Below are positions 10,414-62,045 of a stretch of 64,000 nucleotides of DNA, piece by piece. Source of the stretch: an uncultured Aequorivita sp. (GTDB taxonomy: Bacteria; Bacteroidota; Bacteroidia; Flavobacteriales; Flavobacteriaceae); the NCBI GenBank assembly GCA_937125455.1, contig CAKZLK010000017.1, positions 124,001 to 188,000 of the forward strand, in the 5' to 3' direction. Both the position numbers and the translations under genes were made by a program. The notes beneath the pieces were generated by a model. The model had not been told where the DNA came from. It saw nothing but the letters and a program-made list of their open reading frames with translations, and did not search any database. Position 1 is the first letter of the stretch. Each line of letters begins with the position of its first letter.

Positions 10414-11094
10414 ATGAAAAAAAAAGATATTACAATTTTGTTGGTAGATGATGAACCGGATATTCTTGAAATTGTTCGATACAATCTCAATTCGGAAGGA
10501 TATACTGTTGAAACCGCTGAAAATGGTATTGAAGCCATTGCTCAGGCAAAAAAGCTGAAACCACAATTGATCATTATGGACGTAATGATGCCAAAAATGG
10601 ATGGTATTGAAGCTTGTGAAAAAATTAGAAATATTCCTGAACTCGCTGAAACAGTAATTACCTTTTTAACCGCTCGGGGAGAAGATTATTCGCAAATGGC
10701 AGGTTTTGAGGCTGGTGCTGATGATTACATAACAAAACCAATTAAACCAAAAGTTCTTGTTAGTAAAGTAAAAGCATTGTTGCGAAGGTTTAAAGAAGAG
10801 GAAGGTGATGAAAAAATAAAACTCGGAAATTTAACCATCAATCGTGAAGAATACAAAATTCTGCTTGGCAAAGAAGAAATAATACTGCCTCGTAAAGAAT
10901 TTGAACTATTGGCGCTACTTGCTTCAAAACCAGGAAAGGTCTTTAAGCGTGAAGATATTTTAGACAGTATTTGGGGTAACGAAGTGATTGTTGGTGGTCG
11001 TACCATAGACGTGCATATTAGAAAGCTACGTGAAAAAATTGGCGACGAAAAATTTAAAACTGTTAAAGGCGTTGGCTATAAGTTTGTACTTTAG
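10414..11094 (+). CDS. OmpR/PhoB family response regulator
   Basis: A 226-aa two-domain regulator. The receiver domain (residues 1-120) has the acidic pair LLVDDEPD, the phosphoacceptor Asp in LIIMDVMMPKMDG (about residue 54), Thr in FLTARGED and Lys in YITKPIKP. The C-terminal winged helix spans about residues 130-226, with GGRTIDVHIRKLREKIG and VKGVGYKF as recognition and wing. The kinase gene follows after 6 bp. The pair resembles PhoB/PhoR, but the signal cannot be read from sequence. Confidence 0.93.
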   Translation: MKKKDITILLVDDEPDILEIVRYNLNSEGYTVETAENGIEAIAQAKKLKPQLIIMDVMMPKMDGIEACEKIRNIPELAETVITFLTARGEDYSQMAGFEAGADDYITKPIKPKVLVSKVKALLRRFKEEEGDEKIKLGNLTINREEYKILLGKEEIILPRKEFELLALLASKPGKVFKREDILDSIWGNEVIVGGRTIDVHIRKLREKIGDEKFKTVKGVGYKFVL

Positions 11095-53001: not shown

Positions 53002-55461
53002 ATGTTCAAATTATTTACTTCTTTTCTTTTCCTCTTAATAAGTTTTTCAACAGTATCCCAAACCAGCTTTGAGGAGCAAATAATTATGGATGATAGTTAT
53101 GTGCTTAGCTTCTACGAACCATTTTTTGGTGATATTGATAACGATGGCGATTTGGATATGATGGCAGCAGGAAGTCGTAGTGTAGCCTGGTTTGAAAATT
53201 TGGACGGGCAGGGCACCTTCAGCTCAAGAAATTCCATCGCCACTTACGGTTTTACCCATTACGTTGTGTCACGCTCTTTGGCAGATCTAGATGGTGATGG
53301 CGATCTGGATGCTTTGGTAGCCGTAGATTGGCCGGAGCGCATTTATATGTTCGAAAATTTGGACGGAAACGGAACCTTCGGTCCCGAAAGAATTGTTGCA
53401 GCTTTCACTGGCCCTATTTATGTGGCTGATATGGATGGCGATTCCGATTTGGATATTTTGGTCCACTCCTCACAGCGCAACAACCAAGTGTCGTGGTTAA
53501 AAAATCTTGACGGCTTGGGGCATTTTGGCAGTGAAACCATTATTTCTTCGGAAGTATATGGCCCCAAAGGGTTAATAAGCGTTGACCTTGACGGCGATAA
53601 TGATAATGATGTGCTTGTGGCTTCCTACAATTTTGATAAAATAATATGGTTTAAAAACCTAGATGGTAATGGAAATTTTGGAAATGAAATAATTATAAGC
53701 AACCTGGAAAATGATCCAACTTCAGTTTTTCCGACAGATATGGATTCCGACGGCGATTTGGATATATTAGTATCAAGTTCTTCCGGGTGGGGCAGAATAG
53801 CTTGGTATGAAAATATGGATGGGCAGGGTACTTTTGGACCATTACATGAGGTTGAAAGTGATCTGGACGACCCGGCAACCCTCTATGCCGCCGATATAGA
53901 TAATGATGGCGATAACGATATATTGGCTTCCGCCTCGCATATGGGAGATGATTTTATTTCATATTATGAGAATATAAATGGACAAGGAAGTTTCGGTCCC
54001 TCACATCTTATATCCAATGACATCGCTGAGCCTTCCTACTTAAAAACGGCCGATATTGATAATGATGGCAAATTGGATGTTACCTCCAGTTCCTCTGGCG
54101 ATGGCAAAATGGCCTGGTACAAAAATATTAACGGTCAGGCTTTTGGGCAACAACAGTTTATAAGTGAAGATGTTGAGGGCGCGAAAAATGTATTTACAGC
54201 TGATTTGGATGGCGATGGCGATATGGATTTGTTGGCTGCTTCGGAAAGCTTTAATGGCCAGCCAGGCAATAGTAAAATTTCTTGGTTTGAAAATATTGAT
54301 GGCAGAGGTAGACTGTCACGCCAAAAAATAATTGGCTATCTAAGGGATGCACTGTTGGTAAGGGCAACTGATGTTGACGGCGATGGCGATATGGATGTTT
54401 TAGGAGCATCTTTTTCATCTTCAGAAAGTGGTATCGTAATTTATAAAAATACAGATGGCCTTGGCAATTTTGTGGAATCTTTAAATTTGACAAATGGACT
54501 AAATCAAATGACATCTATAGAAACAGCAGATTTTGATGGCGATGATGATATGGATATTTTATATACCTCTTGGAATGGTATTGGCTGGATTGAAAATATG
54601 GATGGACAGGGTAACTATCAAGATTTTCATGAACTAACACCCGGTGGCGGCTTTCATTCCATTGCCTGTACCGATGATTTGGATGGCGATGGCGATATGG
54701 ATATTATAACCCATAATGATGAAGTAATTTGGTTCGAAAATCTGGGCGGCGGAAACTTTGCGCCTGCCGTATTAATCATAGATGTGGCCCATAGTAGCTA
54801 CATGCAGGATATTAAAATAGCAGACATGGACATGGATGGCGACAAGGATGTGGTGGTCAATACTACCAGCTCAGATGAATATATTATCTGGGTTGAGAAT
54901 CTGGATGGCAATGGAAATTTTGGCAACCCTACCATAATTTTAACGAATGAGTCAACTCCTAATCGTATAACTGTAGGCGATTTTGATAATGACAATGACA
55001 TGGACGTTGCCTTTACATCCGTGTTTCACGACGAGATAGGCTGGCTCGAAAATTTGGATGGGAATGGAAATTTTGGCCCCATAAACATACTATCAGATGA
55101 AATCCTTGAACCAATTTCCATAATTTCTACGGATTTGGATACCGATGGTGATTTGGATATTTTGGGAGTTTCGGACATGGTCAGCACTATAGTTTGGTAT
55201 AAAAATTCCCTGATTTTATCCTTATACGAAAACAATACTCTTAATTTCAAGGTTTATCCAAATCCGACTAATGGGGTGTTAAATATTCAATTGGAAACAA
55301 AAATCAAAATAGCTAGGATTTATAACAGCTTAGGGCAAGAAGTACTATCGAAATCAGATGCAGATAAAATTGATATTTCCACCTTGGAAACGGGAATTTA
55401 TTACCTAAAAGTTATTGATATTTATGATAAGGAAGGAACTTCCCAAATAATTAAAAATTAA
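53002..55461 (+). CDS. Secreted FG-GAP/VCBS-repeat protein with T9SS sorting domain
   Basis: An 819-aa exported protein. A signal peptide ends near residue 20 (FSTVSQ). Residues about 30-735 contain about fourteen FG-GAP-like repeats of 45-60 aa, each with a DxDGDGDxD or DIDNDGD-type calcium-loop motif and a repeated WFENLDGxGxFG, giving a beta-propeller. Residues about 750-819 form a type A type IX sorting domain (VYPNPTNGVLNIQLE, SLGQEVLSK, ISTLETGIYYLKV). Likely a surface binding or adhesion protein; ligand unknown. Confidence 0.88.
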   Translation: MFKLFTSFLFLLISFSTVSQTSFEEQIIMDDSYVLSFYEPFFGDIDNDGDLDMMAAGSRSVAWFENLDGQGTFSSRNSIATYGFTHYVVSRSLADLDGDGDLDALVAVDWPERIYMFENLDGNGTFGPERIVAAFTGPIYVADMDGDSDLDILVHSSQRNNQVSWLKNLDGLGHFGSETIISSEVYGPKGLISVDLDGDNDNDVLVASYNFDKIIWFKNLDGNGNFGNEIIISNLENDPTSVFPTDMDSDGDLDILVSSSSGWGRIAWYENMDGQGTFGPLHEVESDLDDPATLYAADIDNDGDNDILASASHMGDDFISYYENINGQGSFGPSHLISNDIAEPSYLKTADIDNDGKLDVTSSSSGDGKMAWYKNINGQAFGQQQFISEDVEGAKNVFTADLDGDGDMDLLAASESFNGQPGNSKISWFENIDGRGRLSRQKIIGYLRDALLVRATDVDGDGDMDVLGASFSSSESGIVIYKNTDGLGNFVESLNLTNGLNQMTSIETADFDGDDDMDILYTSWNGIGWIENMDGQGNYQDFHELTPGGGFHSIACTDDLDGDGDMDIITHNDEVIWFENLGGGNFAPAVLIIDVAHSSYMQDIKIADMDMDGDKDVVVNTTSSDEYIIWVENLDGNGNFGNPTIILTNESTPNRITVGDFDNDNDMDVAFTSVFHDEIGWLENLDGNGNFGPINILSDEILEPISIISTDLDTDGDLDILGVSDMVSTIVWYKNSLILSLYENNTLNFKVYPNPTNGVLNIQLETKIKIARIYNSLGQEVLSKSDADKIDISTLETGIYYLKVIDIYDKEGTSQIIKN

Positions 55462-55787
55462 AAAAAATCTTATTTTTTCGGCGATTATATCATTTTTGAT
55501 GTGAAGTTTTTTATTTGGGTTTCCACCCCAAATTAAAGGGAACAAAGCTTTGAGGTTCTTTTCTACAAGAATAGCGAAGACAAAGCCCTGATATCCATTA
55601 GCGAAGCTACGCAGGGTTTGGCGAGTGGTTTTAAGACTTAGCTGAAAAATTCCGATGGAAAAGAGTCCTTTTCTTTGATTCTTTTCTTTTGGACAAGCAA
55701 AAGAAAAGAACATACTAAAAACAAGAAGCTTTTTCGTGATCTATATTTTATTGTTTCAGCGTGCCCTTAGCGGAGCCGAAGTGGATG
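55462..55787. repeat. Intergenic repeat region
   Basis: Contains CAAAGCCCTGATATCCATTA and CTTTTCTTTGATTCTTTTCT-type stretches seen widely between flavobacterial genes, the repeat word GCGGAGCCGAAGTGG near 55772 and a purine-rich AAGCAAAAGAAAAGAAC stretch. No gene is credible; minus-strand frames here are translations of the repeats. Confidence 0.5.
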
Positions 55788-56211
55788 GGCTTTTTTTGTT
55801 TTTAATAGCCCCTATAGCAACTAAACCCCAAAAATATACCCCCACCTTTTTAAATGTAATTCAATCTCTTTTCAAGATTTTTCTGTAATCTGCTGGTTTA
55901 TTATTAACTTGGATACCTCTTAAAATTAAATAACAATTATGTCTGATCTTGAAATTTCAAAAACAATAGAACTAAAACATATTACCGCGATCGCACAAAA
56001 GCTTGGCCTGGATGCGGACGAAATTGAAATGTATGGGAAGTATAAAGCTAAACTCCCCCTTGCTAAAATTGATCTTAAAAAAGCGGCAGCGAGCAATCTA
56101 ATCTTGGTCACTGCTATCTCCCCAACCCCAGCTGGGGAAGGAAAAACTACCATGTCTATCGGACTTTCCGAAGGATTGAATCAATTGGGTAAGCAAACAG
56201 TGGTAGCCCTT
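55788..56211 (+). repeat. Truncated duplicate of the fhs 5' region (copy 1)
   Basis: Matches 61624-62045 with scattered differences over promoter, leader and the first about 88 codons of fhs. Similarity ends abruptly at 56211. The two copies are direct repeats 5.8 kb apart that flank the two-component cluster. Confidence 0.9.
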
Positions 56212-56752: not shown

Positions 56753-57148
56753 AAGTTTGGTAAGGAAAAGGCTAATGCACACATAAATTATGACTTGGTA
56801 CTTGCCTTATATAATCTATTGAAACGGGAGTGGTATTTCCTCTTTGAGATTCGGCGGAAACATCGTTATGAGGACCACCATCACGTAAACCGTGTGCTTG
56901 CAAGTACCATAGATCGTGTGCAAGATGAAATACTGGAGCCATTAAATCCTAAGCTTGAATGGGTGGATCTTTTGTTGGGGAGAATGGATGAATACCTAAT
57001 ATCAAAACTTATTACAAGCTGGCGGGAAAATGTCTGGGAGAGTACCCAACAGTTGCTTAAAATAGAAAAACCTGAAGATCGGGAGGTGTTTAGTCTCCAA
57101 CTTGAAAATGCAGTGTTAAAGCGCTCTGATACCATTTGCATGTTCTAA
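56753..57148 (+). pseudogene. DUF5995 family remnant (5'-truncated)
   Basis: The open stretch AHINYDLVLALYNLL, HHVNRVLASTIDRVQDE, LLLGRMDEYLISKL and WRENVWESTQ has the spacing of the C-terminal half of DUF5995 proteins. There is a stop just before it (56750) and no proper start, so the N-terminal half is missing. The likely residual frame could start at TTG 56795 (117 aa). Confidence 0.6.
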
Positions 57149-57391
57149 ATAAACGCTCTGCATAAAAGCAGATTATTTTGAAATTAATAACGTTTTCATT
57201 TTCTAATAATAGAAAACAGATATAAAAGAAGCTTTTCCTAAAGCCCGCACTGGGCGGAGTCGAAGTGAATGCGCTCCTTAAAATTAACACTCATTTTTTT
57301 TGGTGTAGTTACCTTTGCCTCCATCATTTCAGGATTTATATTGAATGAAATTAAATAGCCAATAGCACAGCCGTACCATATTTTATGAATT
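57149..57391. other. Gap before the two-component cluster
   Basis: AT-rich, with one copy of the repeat word GGGCGGAGTCGAAGTGAATG at about 57249. No gene seen; the regulator promoter begins just after. Confidence 0.4.
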
Positions 57392-57447
57392 TTAAGCCAA
57401 TCTTAAGAAAAACCAAATCTCAACTTAATTAAAAATTGTAACTTTTG
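57392..57447 (+). promoter_or_regulatory. Response-regulator box 1 and promoter
   Basis: TTAAG at 57392-57396 and 57403-57407 (11-bp period), then a -7-like TAACTTTTG at 57439-57447, 4 bp before the regulator ATG. The distance from box to -7 is 32 bp. Suggests autoregulation. Confidence 0.72.
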
Positions 57448-57451
57448 TACC

Positions 57452-58120
57452 ATGAGAATTTTAATTGTAGAAGATGAACCCGGTATATATAATTTCCTAA
57501 AACAAGGCTTAGAGGAGGAATCTTATGCTGTAGATATTGCCGAGGAAGGGAAGAAAGGCCTTCATTTAGCCCTTTCTGGGGATTATGATTTGTTGCTGCT
57601 TGATTGGATGGTGCCCGGTATGAGCGGGATTGAAATATGTCGTCAATTTAGAAAGGAATTTAAAGATACACCTGTCATTTTTTTAACCGCCAAGGACACT
57701 GTTGATGAAACCATCTTCGGGCTTCAAGCCGGCGCTAACGATTATATAAAGAAGCCTTTTCATTTTGAAGAACTTTTAGAGCGAATTAAGGTGCAACTGC
57801 GCCCTAAATCTGGGGAACATTCTATTTTTAAACTTGGAAATATCACACTTAACACCACAACGCATCAAGTGCTTAAAGCTGAAGAAGTAATCAGTCTAAC
57901 ACAAAAAGAATTTGCACTTCTGGAATACCTTATGCGCAACAAAGGTATAGTCTGCCGAAGGTCCCGTATCATTGAAAGTGTCTGGGATATTCACTTTGAA
58001 TACAACACTGGGGTTATTGACGTATATATTAATGCCCTTCGTAAAAAATTAAAACTAGGGGAAGATGAAAACTATATTCAAACCGTTCGTGGAGTTGGCT
58101 ATGTAGCAAAAGAAATATGA
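57452..58120 (+). CDS. OmpR-family response regulator (heavy-metal/CusR-like)
   Basis: A 222-aa regulator. Receiver domain: acidic pair LIVEDEPG, phosphoacceptor in LLLLDWMVPGMSG (about residue 51), FLTAKDT, YIKKPFHF. Winged helix about 130-222 with EYNTGVIDVYINALRKKL and TVRGVGYV. It overlaps the kinase start by 4 bp (ATGA). Probably binds the four TTAAG-N6-TTAAG boxes in this cluster. Confidence 0.93.
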   Translation: MRILIVEDEPGIYNFLKQGLEEESYAVDIAEEGKKGLHLALSGDYDLLLLDWMVPGMSGIEICRQFRKEFKDTPVIFLTAKDTVDETIFGLQAGANDYIKKPFHFEELLERIKVQLRPKSGEHSIFKLGNITLNTTTHQVLKAEEVISLTQKEFALLEYLMRNKGIVCRRSRIIESVWDIHFEYNTGVIDVYINALRKKLKLGEDENYIQTVRGVGYVAKEI

Positions 58121-59490
58121 ACTTAAGTTTTCAAAATAGAATTGCATTACATTATATGATAGCCACTGCCGTGATTATGGCCGTGGCTTTTACAACTGTT
58201 TATTTTGTAGTGCAGGAAACAGTTTTTCAAAATCTGGATAACGACCTATCTTTCGAAGCTGAGAAGCATACGGGCGAAATTAAAATCGTAGGAGATAAGA
58301 TTAAAATAAAAAATAAAAAGGGGTGGGAACAAAGAGAACATCGGGAAGTTCAAGTAAACCCTGTCTTTATTCAAATACTGAATAAAGACGGCGAATTTAT
58401 CGACAAATCGCCTAACCTTAAAAATGATGTCCTCATCTTTAATGCACAACAAAACTACGGGGGGCATTTTAACGCAAAATTGAATGGAAAAGCTATCAGG
58501 CAAGTACAAGTACCTATCGAGGATAATGGCAAGATCAGAGGTTTTATACTTGCGGCAATGTCATTGGAATCATCTAAGATGGTTCTACTCAACCTGCGGA
58601 ATGTTTTGGTTTTTTCTTATTTATTTCTATTGGTGGGATTGTATTTCATCTCAAGATACTTGGCGGGACGCGGCATCATTCCAGTAAAAGTTATAACCGA
58701 AACCACAAAGCGGATTACACAGAATAATTTGAATGAAAGGGTGGTTTTGCCACAAAACAAAGACGAACTCTATGAATTGTCAGCGGGTATCAATCAATTA
58801 TTACAGCGTATTGAAAATACCCTAGAGCGCGAACGGCAATTTACCTCAGATGCTTCCCATGAACTGCGCACCCCTTTATCAACCTTAAAAGGCACGCTCG
58901 AGGTATTGATTCGAAAACCAAGAGAACAGGCGGAATATGAAGAGAAAATCAAATTCAGTCTTACGGAAATAGACCGAATAACTGACACCTTGGAACAACT
59001 ATTGCTCCTAGCGAGGTTAGATACCACCGCAAAAACAGTTGACCAATCCTTAGTTCCCTTACCCACTGTAATAGACGAAATTCTTTCAAGACATAAAAAA
59101 CGTATATCAGAAAAAAACCTTGTAATAGATTTTAATAAGGGTGCTGCTCTAGTGAGTGTTGTGCCAAAGTATTATTCCAACTTGATATTAGACAATATTA
59201 TCGGCAATGCCATAAAATATTCCAAGGACAATAAGACGGTGCACATTACAATTACTAAAACCGATTCTAAAATTGTTTGCAAGATTCAGGATGAAGGAAT
59301 AGGCATCAAAAAAGAGGATTTGAACAACTTGTTCAACCACTTTTTCAGGTCGGATGCCCTAAATCATAAAAACATTTCAGGAAACGGTTTGGGGCTTTCC
59401 ATAGCCAAAAAGGCTGCCGATGCCATACATGCCGAAATTCTCATAGAAAGTGAATTTGGTGCAGGAACCACTTTCACGATTGAATTTTAA
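58117..59490 (+). CDS. Sensor histidine kinase
   Basis: A 457-aa kinase of the CusS-like type. Transmembrane helix 1 is at about residues 10-32 (YMIATAVIMAVAFTTVYFVV) and helix 2 at about 160-180 (VLVFSYLFLLVGLYFIS), with a periplasmic domain of about 125 aa between them. HAMP follows. The H-box is DASHELRTPLSTLKG (about 245-260), N-box LILDNIIGNAIKYS, G-boxes DEGIGIK and GNGLGLSIAKK. The signal is unknown; the regulated genes suggest envelope redox or metal stress. Confidence 0.92.
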   Translation: MNLSFQNRIALHYMIATAVIMAVAFTTVYFVVQETVFQNLDNDLSFEAEKHTGEIKIVGDKIKIKNKKGWEQREHREVQVNPVFIQILNKDGEFIDKSPNLKNDVLIFNAQQNYGGHFNAKLNGKAIRQVQVPIEDNGKIRGFILAAMSLESSKMVLLNLRNVLVFSYLFLLVGLYFISRYLAGRGIIPVKVITETTKRITQNNLNERVVLPQNKDELYELSAGINQLLQRIENTLERERQFTSDASHELRTPLSTLKGTLEVLIRKPREQAEYEEKIKFSLTEIDRITDTLEQLLLLARLDTTAKTVDQSLVPLPTVIDEILSRHKKRISEKNLVIDFNKGAALVSVVPKYYSNLILDNIIGNAIKYSKDNKTVHITITKTDSKIVCKIQDEGIGIKKEDLNNLFNHFFRSDALNHKNISGNGLGLSIAKKAADAIHAEILIESEFGAGTTFTIEF

Positions 59491-59542
59491 GCGAATCTTA
59501 AGAATTCCTTTAGTCCAGCCTTAGTTTGCGCTGCTACATTTG
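59487..59542 (+). promoter_or_regulatory. Response-regulator box 2 and promoter
   Basis: TTAAG at 59487-59491 and 59498-59502 overlap the kinase stop codon. -7 TACATTTG at 59535-59542, 33 bp after the box, 25 bp before the ATG at 59568. Confidence 0.72.
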
Positions 59543-59567
59543 GTGTGTAATTCAAAAACACATAAAG

Positions 59568-60035
59568 ATGTTAACAGCACCACACATTCACGCAATGGTT
59601 ATCCACTTTCCGATAGCCTTAATCTTTGTTGGTTTTCTCTCAGAGATCATAGGGCTTATCAGTAAAAAGACATTTTTCAAGCATGCCGCATTCTATCTCT
59701 TACTTCTAGGCGCCCTAGGCGCTATAGTAGCTTACGTGAGCGGAAGTTATGCAGGAAGTGGGATGACGGATGGCATACTACAAGAACCCATGGAACTTCA
59801 CGAAGAAGCTGCCGTTATAACACTTTGGCTTGCTATTATTACTGCATTATTTCGTGTGGTAATATACTACTTCAAATATGAAAGAACATGGGCTAAATGG
59901 GTTGGCATTTTTCTATTTGCTGCTTTAGTAGGTTCGGTTGCCAGAACAGGTTATTTAGGCGGGCAATTGGTTTTTCAACATGGAGCAGGTATTGAATTAA
60001 CGCTGCCAGATTTTGGAGGTCAATCCACCGAATAA
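59568..60035 (+). CDS. DUF2231 family membrane protein
   Basis: A 155-aa membrane protein from the ATG at 59568, MLTAPHIHAMVIHFPIALI; an earlier ATG 42 bp upstream falls too close to the -7 element to be used. Four hydrophobic helices, with the family's His-rich first helix (HIHAMVIHFP). DUF2231 proteins are predicted membrane proteins, sometimes haem-linked; function not settled. It has a paralogue at 61043. Confidence 0.8.
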   Translation: MLTAPHIHAMVIHFPIALIFVGFLSEIIGLISKKTFFKHAAFYLLLLGALGAIVAYVSGSYAGSGMTDGILQEPMELHEEAAVITLWLAIITALFRVVIYYFKYERTWAKWVGIFLFAALVGSVARTGYLGGQLVFQHGAGIELTLPDFGGQSTE

Positions 60036-60044
60036 CATCAATTT

Positions 60045-60101
60045 TTAATCAATTCTTAAGAAACAATAAAGAAAACCCACAACTAGGTGGACATACATTT
60101 A
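60045..60101 (+). promoter_or_regulatory. Response-regulator box 3 and promoter
   Basis: TTAAT at 60045-60049 and TTAAG at 60056-60060, 11-bp period, then TACATTTA at 60094-60101 (34 bp after). One base from consensus in each element. Confidence 0.65.
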
Positions 60102-60134
60102 CGCAATAATTAATATAATTTAAAAAAAAATAAA

Positions 60135-60839
60135 ATGAAAAAATCAGTAGTAGTATTAGCACTTGGAATTGTATTCTCAAGTATGCTTTTTCAATCTTGT
60201 AAAGACAATGTTGATAAAATTGAAGTGAAATCATCTGAAGAAATAGGGCAAGAGGTCATGGGCGATACAACGGAAAATAAAGACCCTCAAAAAGCAACTA
60301 TTCAGAACATGAAGGATGCGTTTAAGGGTGAAACTACCGCACATGCTAAGTATGCTGCGTATAGTAAAAAAGCAGTGGAAGAAGGCTATCCTGAAATTGC
60401 GATGCTTTTTAAAGCAGCATCTGAAGCAGAATTGATACACGCCAATAATCATAAGGTTGTGTTGGATAGAATGGGTGAAAAAACCCCAGACGTTACACCA
60501 GAATTCACTGTAAATTCAACCAAAGAAAACTTAAAAGATGCCATTGAAGGCGAGAGTTATGAGTTTAATACCATGTACCCTAATTTTATTAAGGACGCCC
60601 ATGCTGCAGGAAATTATATGGCACAAATAAGTTTGACATATGCCTATAAGGTGGAGCAAAAACATAGAGATTTCTATATAAATGCCTTAAAAGCTTTGGA
60701 AGATGGAAATGTAAAATCATTGCCTTCGCAGTATTACCTATGCCCCACTTGTGGAAATACATACGCCACAACTGCTCCAGCAAGATGTGAAATATCAATG
60801 ACAGATTCCAAATTATTTATAAAAATAGACTCACTATAG
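60135..60839 (+). CDS. Rubrerythrin-family lipoprotein
   Basis: A 234-aa lipoprotein: lipobox LFQSC (Cys22). Residues about 55-195 form a ferritin-like diiron domain with the Glu/His pattern (GETTAHAKYAAYSK, EAELIHANNHK, EGESYEFNTMYP, KVEQKHRDFY). The C-terminus is rubredoxin-like, CPTCGNTYATTAPARC, but the final cysteine expected in this domain is serine (CEIS), so only three cysteines are visible. Rubrerythrins reduce peroxides; export to the envelope as a lipoprotein is unusual. It is probably part of the peroxide or metal-stress response. Confidence 0.85.
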   Translation: MKKSVVVLALGIVFSSMLFQSCKDNVDKIEVKSSEEIGQEVMGDTTENKDPQKATIQNMKDAFKGETTAHAKYAAYSKKAVEEGYPEIAMLFKAASEAELIHANNHKVVLDRMGEKTPDVTPEFTVNSTKENLKDAIEGESYEFNTMYPNFIKDAHAAGNYMAQISLTYAYKVEQKHRDFYINALKALEDGNVKSLPSQYYLCPTCGNTYATTAPARCEISMTDSKLFIKIDSL

Positions 60840-60875
60840 TTTAAAATTTTGTTTTTATAGTGTTGATTGGTTGGC

Positions 60876-60904
60876 AAGGCCCCGGACGATGTTTGGGGCT
60901 TTTG
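60876..60904 (+). terminator. Terminator after the rubrerythrin gene
   Basis: AAGGCCCC and GGGGCTTTT arms (about 60876-60904) with a short mismatch, followed by Ts. Confidence 0.68.
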
Positions 60905-60933
60905 TTATTTGTAGCTTTTCCAAAATACTATTC

Positions 60934-60989
60934 TTAAGCCAATTTTAAGAAACCGTTTAGAAGGCTCTTAGATAGGCCATATACTTTTG
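60934..60989 (+). promoter_or_regulatory. Response-regulator box 4 and promoter
   Basis: TTAAG at 60934-60938 and 60945-60949, then TACTTTTG at 60982-60989, 33 bp after the box. The word TTAAGCC-AAT-YTTAAG is shared with box 1. Confidence 0.75.
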
Positions 60990-61042
60990 AGGTATTACAA
61001 TTCAATGCAGGGGCAAAATTTAATAATCTAAATATAAAAATC

Positions 61043-61534
61043 ATGAACGACGCGCATTTTCATTTAGTAGTAACCCATCTTCCCATTGTGGGAGTATTGA
61101 TTGGGTTTTTGGTCCTCCTCACAGGCTATTTCACAAAAAGCTCCCAAGTAAAGACAACGGCATTGGGTATTTTCATCTTTAGTGCCCTAGCGGCTATTGT
61201 TGCTTTTTTTACAGGGGAAGGAGCAGAGGAAATCGTAGAGAATCTACCGGGAGTAAGTGAAACCCTTATCCATGCACACGAAGAACAAGCAGAAATATTT
61301 TATACAATGATGTTGATCCTGGGTGGTCTTTCCCTAGTGACCATGATTATTCACTACAAAAAATACGCTTTCGCTAAATACGGCTTTATTGTGGTGGTGG
61401 TGCTGTCTATAAGCAGTATTGTTATGTCCAAATTTGTGGGTACAAGTGGAGGTGAAATTGTTCATGCTGAAATTAGAAGCGATGCCAATAATTTAATTCA
61501 AATGGATTCCCATACTAACGATGATGACGATTAA
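61043..61534 (+). CDS. DUF2231 family membrane protein (second copy)
   Basis: A 163-aa paralogue of the gene at 59568: HFHLVVTHLPIVGVLIGFL and ALAAIVAFFTGEGAEEIVE lie at matching positions, then an aspartate-rich tail. Four hydrophobic helices. Also preceded by a TTAAG box, so both copies are in one regulon. Function unknown. Confidence 0.78.
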   Translation: MNDAHFHLVVTHLPIVGVLIGFLVLLTGYFTKSSQVKTTALGIFIFSALAAIVAFFTGEGAEEIVENLPGVSETLIHAHEEQAEIFYTMMLILGGLSLVTMIIHYKKYAFAKYGFIVVVVLSISSIVMSKFVGTSGGEIVHAEIRSDANNLIQMDSHTNDDDD

Positions 61535-61578
61535 AAGCGTTACAGGCTCGTGTCCCCACCCCGTCAATAAATGTGGCT

Positions 61579-61629
61579 TGTGGTTTAGAAATAGACCGAT
61601 GAGAAGCTTTTCCTAAATGGAGAGGCTTT
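61579..61629 (+). ncRNA. Structured repeat, copy C (terminator)
   Basis: Carries the 31-bp sequence shared with copies A and B (61579-61609) and a terminator with arms around TTTCC-TAAAT-GGAGAGG. It lies 45 bp after the DUF2231 stop and just before the fhs duplicate region. No tRNA 3' end precedes it. Confidence 0.5.
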
Positions 61630-62045
61630 TTTTGTTTTTAATAGCCTCTATAACAACTAAAATCTAAAAACATACCCCGCCTTTTTAAATGTAATTCAAT
61701 CTCTTTTCAAGATTTTTCTGTAATCTGCTGGTTTATTATTAACTTGGATACCTCTTAAAATCAAAAACAACTATGTCCGATCTTGAAATTGCAAAAAAAA
61801 TAGAACTAAAACACATTACCACTATCGCTCAAAAACTTGGCCTGAAGGCAGACGATATTGAAATGTATGGGAAGTATAAAGCCAAACTTCCCCTTGCTAA
61901 AATTGATTTAAAAAAAGCGGCAGCGAGCAATCTAATCTTGGTCACGGCTATTTCTCCAACCCCAGCTGGGGAAGGAAAAACTACCATGTCTATCGGACTT
62001 TCCGAAGGACTGAATCAACTGGGAAAGAAAACAGTGGTTGTGCTT
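61624..62045 (+). repeat. fhs 5' region, copy 2 (intact gene)
   Basis: Partner of 55788-56211. This copy continues into full-length fhs. Flanking duplication suggests that the 5.8-kb cluster between them was added or rearranged here. Confidence 0.9.

Follow-up and report, generated by a model that had tools for sequence, protein, structure and literature searches.

The 64,000-nucleotide stretch of DNA considered here (the window), from an uncultured Aequorivita sp. of the Flavobacteriaceae (contig CAKZLK010000017.1), carries a small gene island built around an OmpR-type two-component system, in which a response regulator and a sensor histidine kinase are followed by a DUF2231 membrane protein, a rubrerythrin-like protein and a DUF2231-like membrane protein (Table 1). 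The regulator has the receiver and C-terminal winged helix by which the OmpR/PhoB family is defined, with Pfam matches to Response_reg (PF00072, 105.9 bits; cut-off 30.2) and Trans_reg_C (PF00486, 90.7 bits; cut-off 26.2). Four of the five genes, all except that of the kinase, are preceded by an array of TTAAG-type half-sites that ends just upstream of a TAnnTTTG-type −7 element.

An earlier sequence-only reading had placed TTAAG-N6-TTAAG boxes in front of these four genes, and Pfam assigns the genes as it did, the second DUF2231 match falling just below its cut-off. The boxes at 57392, 59487 and 60934 are exact (TTAAGCCAATCTTAAG, TTAAGCGAATCTTAAG and TTAAGCCAATTTTAAG, respectively), whereas the one at 60045 is present with one mismatch (TTAATCAATTCTTAAG). 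The distance from box end to −7 element, put at 32–34 bp, is indeed nearly constant, and measures 32, 32, 33 and 32 bp. The −7 or −7-like elements at 59535 (TACATTTG), 60094 (TACATTTA, one mismatch to TAnnTTTG) and 60982 (TACTTTTG) begin where they had been placed, but the first (AACTTTTG, also one mismatch) begins at 57440 and not 57439; its TTTG is followed 4 nt later by the ATG of the regulator gene. All four half-sites are kept in promoters 2 and 4, and those of the regulator and rubrerythrin-like genes are weaker in their downstream part. Operator 2 overlaps (59487–59490) the stop codon of the kinase gene and the final base of its last sense codon, and a box is found at the corresponding kinase-end place (8036) in many relatives' loci.

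Table 1. Genes and promoter/operator regions of the island; half-sites are listed in the order +0, +11, +22 and +33 from the box start.
Feature	Position	Strand	Details
Promoter/operator 1, regulator gene	57392–57447	+	TTAAG, TTAAG, CAAAT (weak), TTAAT
OmpR/PhoB-type response regulator	57452–58120	+	222 aa; Asp51 by count in translation
Sensor histidine kinase	58117–59490	+	457 aa
Promoter/operator 2, DUF2231 gene a	59487–59542	+	TTAAG, TTAAG, TTTAG, CTTAG
DUF2231 membrane protein a	59568–60035	+	155 aa
Promoter/operator 3, rubrerythrin-like gene	60045–60101	+	TTAAT, TTAAG, TAAAG, CACAA; weakest of the four
Rubrerythrin-like protein	60135–60839	+	234 aa
Promoter/operator 4, DUF2231-like gene b	60934–60989	+	TTAAG, TTAAG, TTTAG, CTTAG
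DUF2231-like membrane protein b	61043–61534	+	163 aa; 25.7 bits against a cut-off of 26.4

Operator anatomy and rarity

The operator was compared across the best 80 of 245 loci with a relative of the regulator. When one mismatch is allowed, 66 of these 80 loci have a box 59–61 nt 5' of the regulator start and 7 have one 101–308 nt before it; no box was found within 400 nt of the regulator start in the remaining 7, two of which are cut by a contig end. One box was kept per locus, and two loci counted at −160 and −240 (L021 and L025) also carry a box at −60. The 11-bp period that had been proposed for two half-sites is seen, but two half-sites were rejected as a full description of the operator, since relatives have further half-sites at +22 and +33, making four in the best promoters. 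The relatives' register is thus half-sites at 0, 11, 22 and 33, with TAnnTTTG at +48. The majority consensus of the box-aligned promoters of CusA/CzcA pumps is TtTTAAGC.AATCTTAAGAAA...TTtAGaaa..ccTTAGat..c.....TAcaTTTg; the half-site consensus is YTTAAG/YTTTAG.

Of 49 distinct pump promoters, 42 match at least four of the five bases of YTWAG at +22 and 45 do so at +33; for the 46 distinct regulator promoters the numbers are 32 and 30. The median at other offsets is 1 (pump) and 3 (regulator). All five bases are matched in 22 of the 49 pump promoters for half-site 3 and in 36 for half-site 4; the downstream half-sites of the regulator promoters resemble YTAAT and TTAA. TTTG begins at +52 or +53 in most boxes, namely 54 of the 67 before pumps and 56 of the 74 before the regulator. 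An inverted-repeat operator was considered, but half-sites 3 and 4 (TTTAG and YTTAG) are non-palindromic and point in one direction, which favours a direct array. The four half-sites fit two tandem head-to-tail dimers.

On the plus strand of the 80 loci there are 194 exact pairs with N6, compared with 5 for the reversed motif, 5 for N7, 1 for N8 and none for N5. The corresponding minus-strand counts are 59 for N6, 6 reversed, 4 for N7, 1 for N8 and 3 for N5, many of the 59 being plus-strand sites read in reverse, because CTTAAG is its own reverse complement.

Could the boxes be chance occurrences, or a by-product of AT-rich promoter DNA? The bare core, taken by itself, behaves as this would predict: exact copies number 18 in the 3.73-Mb genome and those of its reversed control 45, and the window has 132 sites with up to two mismatches, below the shuffle mean of 171. 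The bare core proves nothing, but the complete arrangement is rare: an exact box with TAnnTTTG 32–33 bp further on occurs twice in the 3.73 Mb, both times in the island, and the reversed control of this pattern occurs nowhere in the genome and in one of 120 genomes of the family. A promoter matrix built from 105 distinct promoters in relatives' loci, from which the Aequorivita loci (L007–L010) were excluded, ranks the four window sites first, with scores of 53.7, 51.8, 48.3 and 26.9; the next best score is 4.9, and the maxima in three resampled windows are 5.6, 2.8 and 4.3.

The training contexts had been picked by the exact core, so that half-sites 1 and 2 are partly circular in this matrix and scoring the downstream part alone is the fairer test. 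With half-sites 3 and 4 and the −7 element only, a pooled matrix ranks the four sites 3, 2, 20 and 1 among 63,960 plus-strand positions. The ranks are 96, 2, 109 and 1 with a matrix from pump promoters and 1, 32, 390 and 146 with one from regulator promoters, being poorer for classes of site outside a matrix's training. Four phased half-sites and a −7 element conserved across tens of loci, together with a matrix from other genera that puts the window sites first, contradict a chance origin, which we reject as barely credible.

The regulator and its targets

The sequence-only reading had tied this small regulon to the local OmpR-family regulator, and the distribution of the two across genomes bears this out, as does the box before the regulator gene in relatives. 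In a sample of 120 genomes from the family, the regulator was sought at E ≤ 1e-60 with up to 24 candidates scored per genome, and the operator as TTAAGN4TYTTAAGN(32-33)TANNTTTG. The regulator is present in 6 genomes, and the pattern occurs in 5 of these and in none of the other 114 (Fisher p = 3e-8); all 6 places where it occurs lie 1.4–2.8 kb from the regulator gene. In a sample of 395 genomes from the phylum, with N32–34 in the pattern, up to 7 candidates scored per genome and a match threshold that lets in relatives down to about 45% identity, 126 genomes have a regulator match and 32 the pattern, with 26 having both (p = 2.7e-9, indicative only, since the genomes are not independent, many coming from the family designated f18). 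Absence of the regulator from a genome depends here on the number of candidates scored. The reversed pattern was found in 2 of the 395 genomes (G181 and G447).

A different regulator of the cell might bind the boxes, leaving the island regulator a mere neighbour. TTAAG-type half-sites are also used by PmrA, another member of the OmpR family, and 23 of the 36 pattern places in the phylum lie away from a regulator match. The 114 family genomes without the regulator, none of which has the pattern, tell against this idea, as do the other OmpR-type regulators of the genome itself. There are four Trans_reg_C matches, and the island one has the box; no exact box lies in the 400 nt upstream of two others (L157 and L158), and the matrix gives no positive score at any of the three (L157–L159). 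One of them, L157, lies at 10873–11085 of the same window. We therefore regard control by another regulator as highly improbable.

Many of the pattern places far from a regulator match are in family f18, and in four loci inspected there (L135, L136, L137 and L142) they stand before thioredoxin-like genes. The f18 arrays (L135–L143, L097, L099, L108, L110 and L133) have TAAAG as half-site 4, and beside the regulators of this family DUF2231 is replaced by a gene for a small membrane protein. Five of the 6 genomes with the pattern only belong to family f2; by eye, the gene behind the pattern is ExbB/TolQ-like in one locus (L127) and short-chain dehydrogenase-like in another (L126). Three loci in genomes without a regulator match (L127–L129) have arrays of three TTAAG half-sites followed by TAnnTTTG, and these are perhaps sites of another regulator. 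Two further loci (L124 and L125, genomes G203 and G405) have the pattern together with a third, in-register TTAAG; a regulator match with about 60% identity lies 3.1–3.2 kb away.

Which genes are controlled was assessed from the 193 plus-strand boxes counted, one of the 194 having been dropped near a contig end. The downstream gene, chosen by script as the longest open reading frame (ORF) whose ATG lay no more than 300 nt away, and given its name through regular expressions, is the regulator for 74, a pump for 67, DUF2231 a for 11, DUF2231 b for 2, a rubrerythrin-like gene for 3 and another gene for 26, with no gene for 10; the other genes include a few pumps, and some pumps with two boxes in front are counted twice. 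Besides the regulator, the commonest target in relatives is thus a CusA/CzcA efflux pump. All three of the relatives' pumps tested exceed the CusA/CzcA cut-off (TIGR00914). The pump motif DFGxxxDGAxxxVE is that of divalent-metal exporters. Eight chosen downstream genes gave Pfam matches to a pump fused to an outer-membrane efflux protein, Thioredoxin_7 (twice), VIT1, HD, Rieske, MIP and Haem_bd. The island itself encodes no pump. Its two DUF2231 proteins have four histidines (His6, His8, His13 and His78) in common with each other and with 16 relatives. Operator, DUF2231, regulator and kinase follow one another in this order in three distant relatives (L101, L105 and L145); in L104 DUF2231, regulator and kinase stand together and the sole box found lies behind the kinase. 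The N-terminus of the rubrerythrin-like protein resembles, by eye, a lipoprotein signal.

Within its own genome the regulator's predicted targets, as far as examined, are the four island promoters only. Three of the 18 exact cores are in the window, and a scan for further boxes, as the sequence-only reading had envisaged, covered 9 of the 15 exact sites outside it and one inexact site. None of these 10 is comparable: all of them lack an exact TAnnTTTG at +48, and their matrix scores reach 14.0 at most. The site with this score (L152; minus strand 553, G000:C17:236133) precedes an ORF of at least 371 codons and has an exact core, and TATATTTG lies just 23 bp from where the box begins; at +48 it has TCCTTTTG, with one mismatch, but this lies beyond the start codon. 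It is perhaps a short version with two half-sites.

We conclude that the boxes are in all likelihood the operator of the response regulator at 57452–58120, which would activate the island genes in response to a metal or redox signal, and that the array is very probably the regulator's own switch for a small set of metal- or redox-stress genes. A number of observations weigh against this. In the island, half-site 4 is missing from promoter 3, and in promoter 1 half-site 3 is poor and the −7 element imperfect; among relatives, matches to all five bases in the regulator promoters number only 5 of 46 for half-site 3 and 4 of 46 for half-site 4. The association is looser across the phylum, where 100 of the 126 genomes with a regulator match are without the exact pattern, 6 of the 32 with the pattern are without a regulator match, and only 13 of the 36 pattern places have such a match within 5 kb. 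Five CusA/CzcA-type loci examined in the genome itself (L160–L164, three of them over the cut-off, with L163 beginning at a contig end) have neither the operator nor a positive matrix score. Finally, AgrR, CopR and PcoR, all heavy-metal regulators, bind inverted repeats according to PMC7380067, 6-4-6 in the case of AgrR, unlike the direct array of the island.

As to the signal, metal is likely, given the relatives' pumps. What is sensed in the periplasm would probably be a metal or a redox stress linked to it, since in relatives the operator stands most often, apart from the regulator gene, before CusA/CzcA pumps; the link rests on these relatives because the five pump loci examined in the genome itself lack the operator. 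In the sensor domain of the kinase, His51, Glu74 and His75 are invariant in an alignment of 50 sequences, and 100% conserved after rounding in one of 79. A structural model of kinase residues 1–240 has a mean pLDDT of 84, with about 70–83 across much of the sensor part, and a pTM of 0.61. Its matches include WalK, sporulation kinase D and PhoQ, with CusS (5ku5) matched weakly (rank 12, E = 0.012, TMt 0.52), and they single out neither CusS nor any ligand.

Promoter geometry and mode of action

Flavobacterial −7 elements are placed at −12 to −5 in PMC6847099 and PMC9723704. By arithmetic from this position, half-site 1 covers −60 to −56, half-site 3 covers −38 to −34 and half-site 4 covers −27 to −23, the last of these ending 10 bp 5' of the −7 element. 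The location of half-site 3 agrees with an array that would take the place of the −33 element, as the sequence-only reading had supposed. The −33 motif is, however, weak in the promoters of Flavobacterium johnsoniae generally, according to portions of PMC6847099, so that a missing −33 element says little and its replacement cannot be read from the sequence.

For an OmpR-family regulator, this geometry suggests activation by head-to-tail dimers positioned beside the polymerase. Could the island regulator instead bind the array and repress, perhaps in its unphosphorylated form, the boxes excluding polymerase? In favour of this, the −33 region and some of the spacer lie under the array, and one of the four promoters is that of the regulator itself, which would suit negative autoregulation. 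On the other hand, half-site 4 stops 10 bp short of the −7 element, which is left free, and the spacing to TTTG is fixed, 63 of the 74 regulator boxes having it at +51 to +53 and 54 of the 67 pump boxes at +52 or +53; contact with polymerase would need a fixed spacing and repression would not, an argument from geometry only. We consider repression unlikely.

The activation that we favour would proceed as follows. Each promoter offers up to four direct half-sites with an 11-bp period upstream of a TAnnTTTG-type −7 element, to which the phosphorylated regulator would most likely bind as two head-to-tail dimers. The downstream dimer, around −38 to −23, would recruit RNA polymerase carrying the Bacteroidota housekeeping sigma factor. 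The regulator would in this way activate its own gene, giving positive feedback, as well as the two DUF2231 genes and the rubrerythrin-like gene.

Transcription of the regulator gene may have a further peculiarity. Among 78 loci, TTTG is followed by N4-ATG in 62 and by N3-ATG in 2, with no TTTG close by in 14. From the N4 spacing, transcription should therefore start at the A of the ATG, and the regulator mRNA is predicted to be leaderless. Such mRNAs are a minority class in flavobacteria, amounting to 5.5% in Flavobacterium psychrophilum in the part of PMC9723704 that treats them.

A bolder formulation joins several of these elements. The fixed four-half-site operator would replace the −33 element, two tandem dimers would contact a divergent sigma factor, the regulator mRNA would be leaderless, and DUF2231, with its conserved histidines, would be a core partner of the system, as the recurrence of the order operator, DUF2231, regulator, kinase in distant relatives suggests. 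Taken whole, this formulation is possible but somewhat doubtful, and we put it forward tentatively.

Island setting and related systems

The island sits between a 429-bp duplicate (91% identical) of the 5' end of a formate-tetrahydrofolate ligase gene and the intact gene, as if it had come in at that gene. The two copies, at 55776–56204 and 61612–62038, include upstream DNA, and of the left copy only 94 codons remain. Among the matches listed in a scan of genome contigs, the nearest relative of the regulator is that of Aequorivita antarctica, with 99% identity, and positions 57379–61543 align to this species at 92% over 4169 bp; within the 6 kb compared, the flanks have no A. antarctica match except for one 90-bp piece. 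A plasmid search gave one record, from Hymenobacter, with 69% identity. Directly upstream of the island (56795–57148) is the C-terminal part of a DUF5995 protein, probably a remnant. Further upstream, 53002–55461 encodes a large, secreted-looking protein, which by eye has numerous VCBS/FG-GAP-like repeats rich in Asp and, at its C-terminus, a sorting-like tail.

The best-scoring models among those listed from NCBIfam belong to the heavy-metal systems. The regulator scores highest with TIGR01387 (CusR/CopR/CzcR; 224.4 bits, below the cut-off of 279.2) and the kinase with TIGR01386 (CusS-type; 209.9 bits, below 292.55). A further resemblance to the systems of CusR, CopR, CzcR and AgrR with CusS-type kinases is that the relatives' operator stands before CusA/CzcA pumps. 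For AgrR, type II activation and positive autoregulation are proposed in PMC7380067, and an additional direct half-site, in phase, is present at some of its operators.

The operator itself resembles the PmrA/BasR box of the enterobacterial PmrAB system, with its CTTAAG-type direct half-sites and 11-bp period; PmrA binds head-to-tail on CTTAAG-N5-XTTAAT, as set out in an excerpt of PMC3973317. The island core, YTTAAG-N5-CTTAAG, has the same form, but this is a resemblance of operators and not membership, the island regulator scoring 162.6 bits with the PmrA model NF007928, under its cut-off of 330. The PmrA/BasR box also differs in having two half-sites, compared with up to four in the island, where they are combined with a Bacteroidota −7 element and metal or redox targets.

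Tandem pho boxes bound by PhoB provide another parallel, being 11-bp direct repeats that sometimes take more than one dimer and of which the final half-site stands some 10 bp from the −10 element, although the PhoB half-site and regulon are different. Among the literature matches listed, none was recognised as describing the present operator. CusR-like regulators are discussed in PMC11213822, which deals with copper genes in Bizionia argentinensis, and a word search of its main text for the box, DUF2231 and rubrerythrin found none of them; the 11-bp repeats of PMC10197871 lie, from the part that describes them, within tolC and are unrelated.

What the island offers is a defined operator of fixed geometry, with natural stronger and weaker versions within a single 4-kb stretch, and a signature that can be used for locating members of the regulon in other genomes. 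To our knowledge, little has been established about activators that work at Bacteroidota promoters, with their TAnnTTTG −7 elements. The operator ties DUF2231, rubrerythrin-like, thioredoxin-like and VIT1 genes to the kind of promoter that serves metal-efflux pumps, and places a relative of the heavy-metal regulators beside a direct-repeat operator of the PmrA type.

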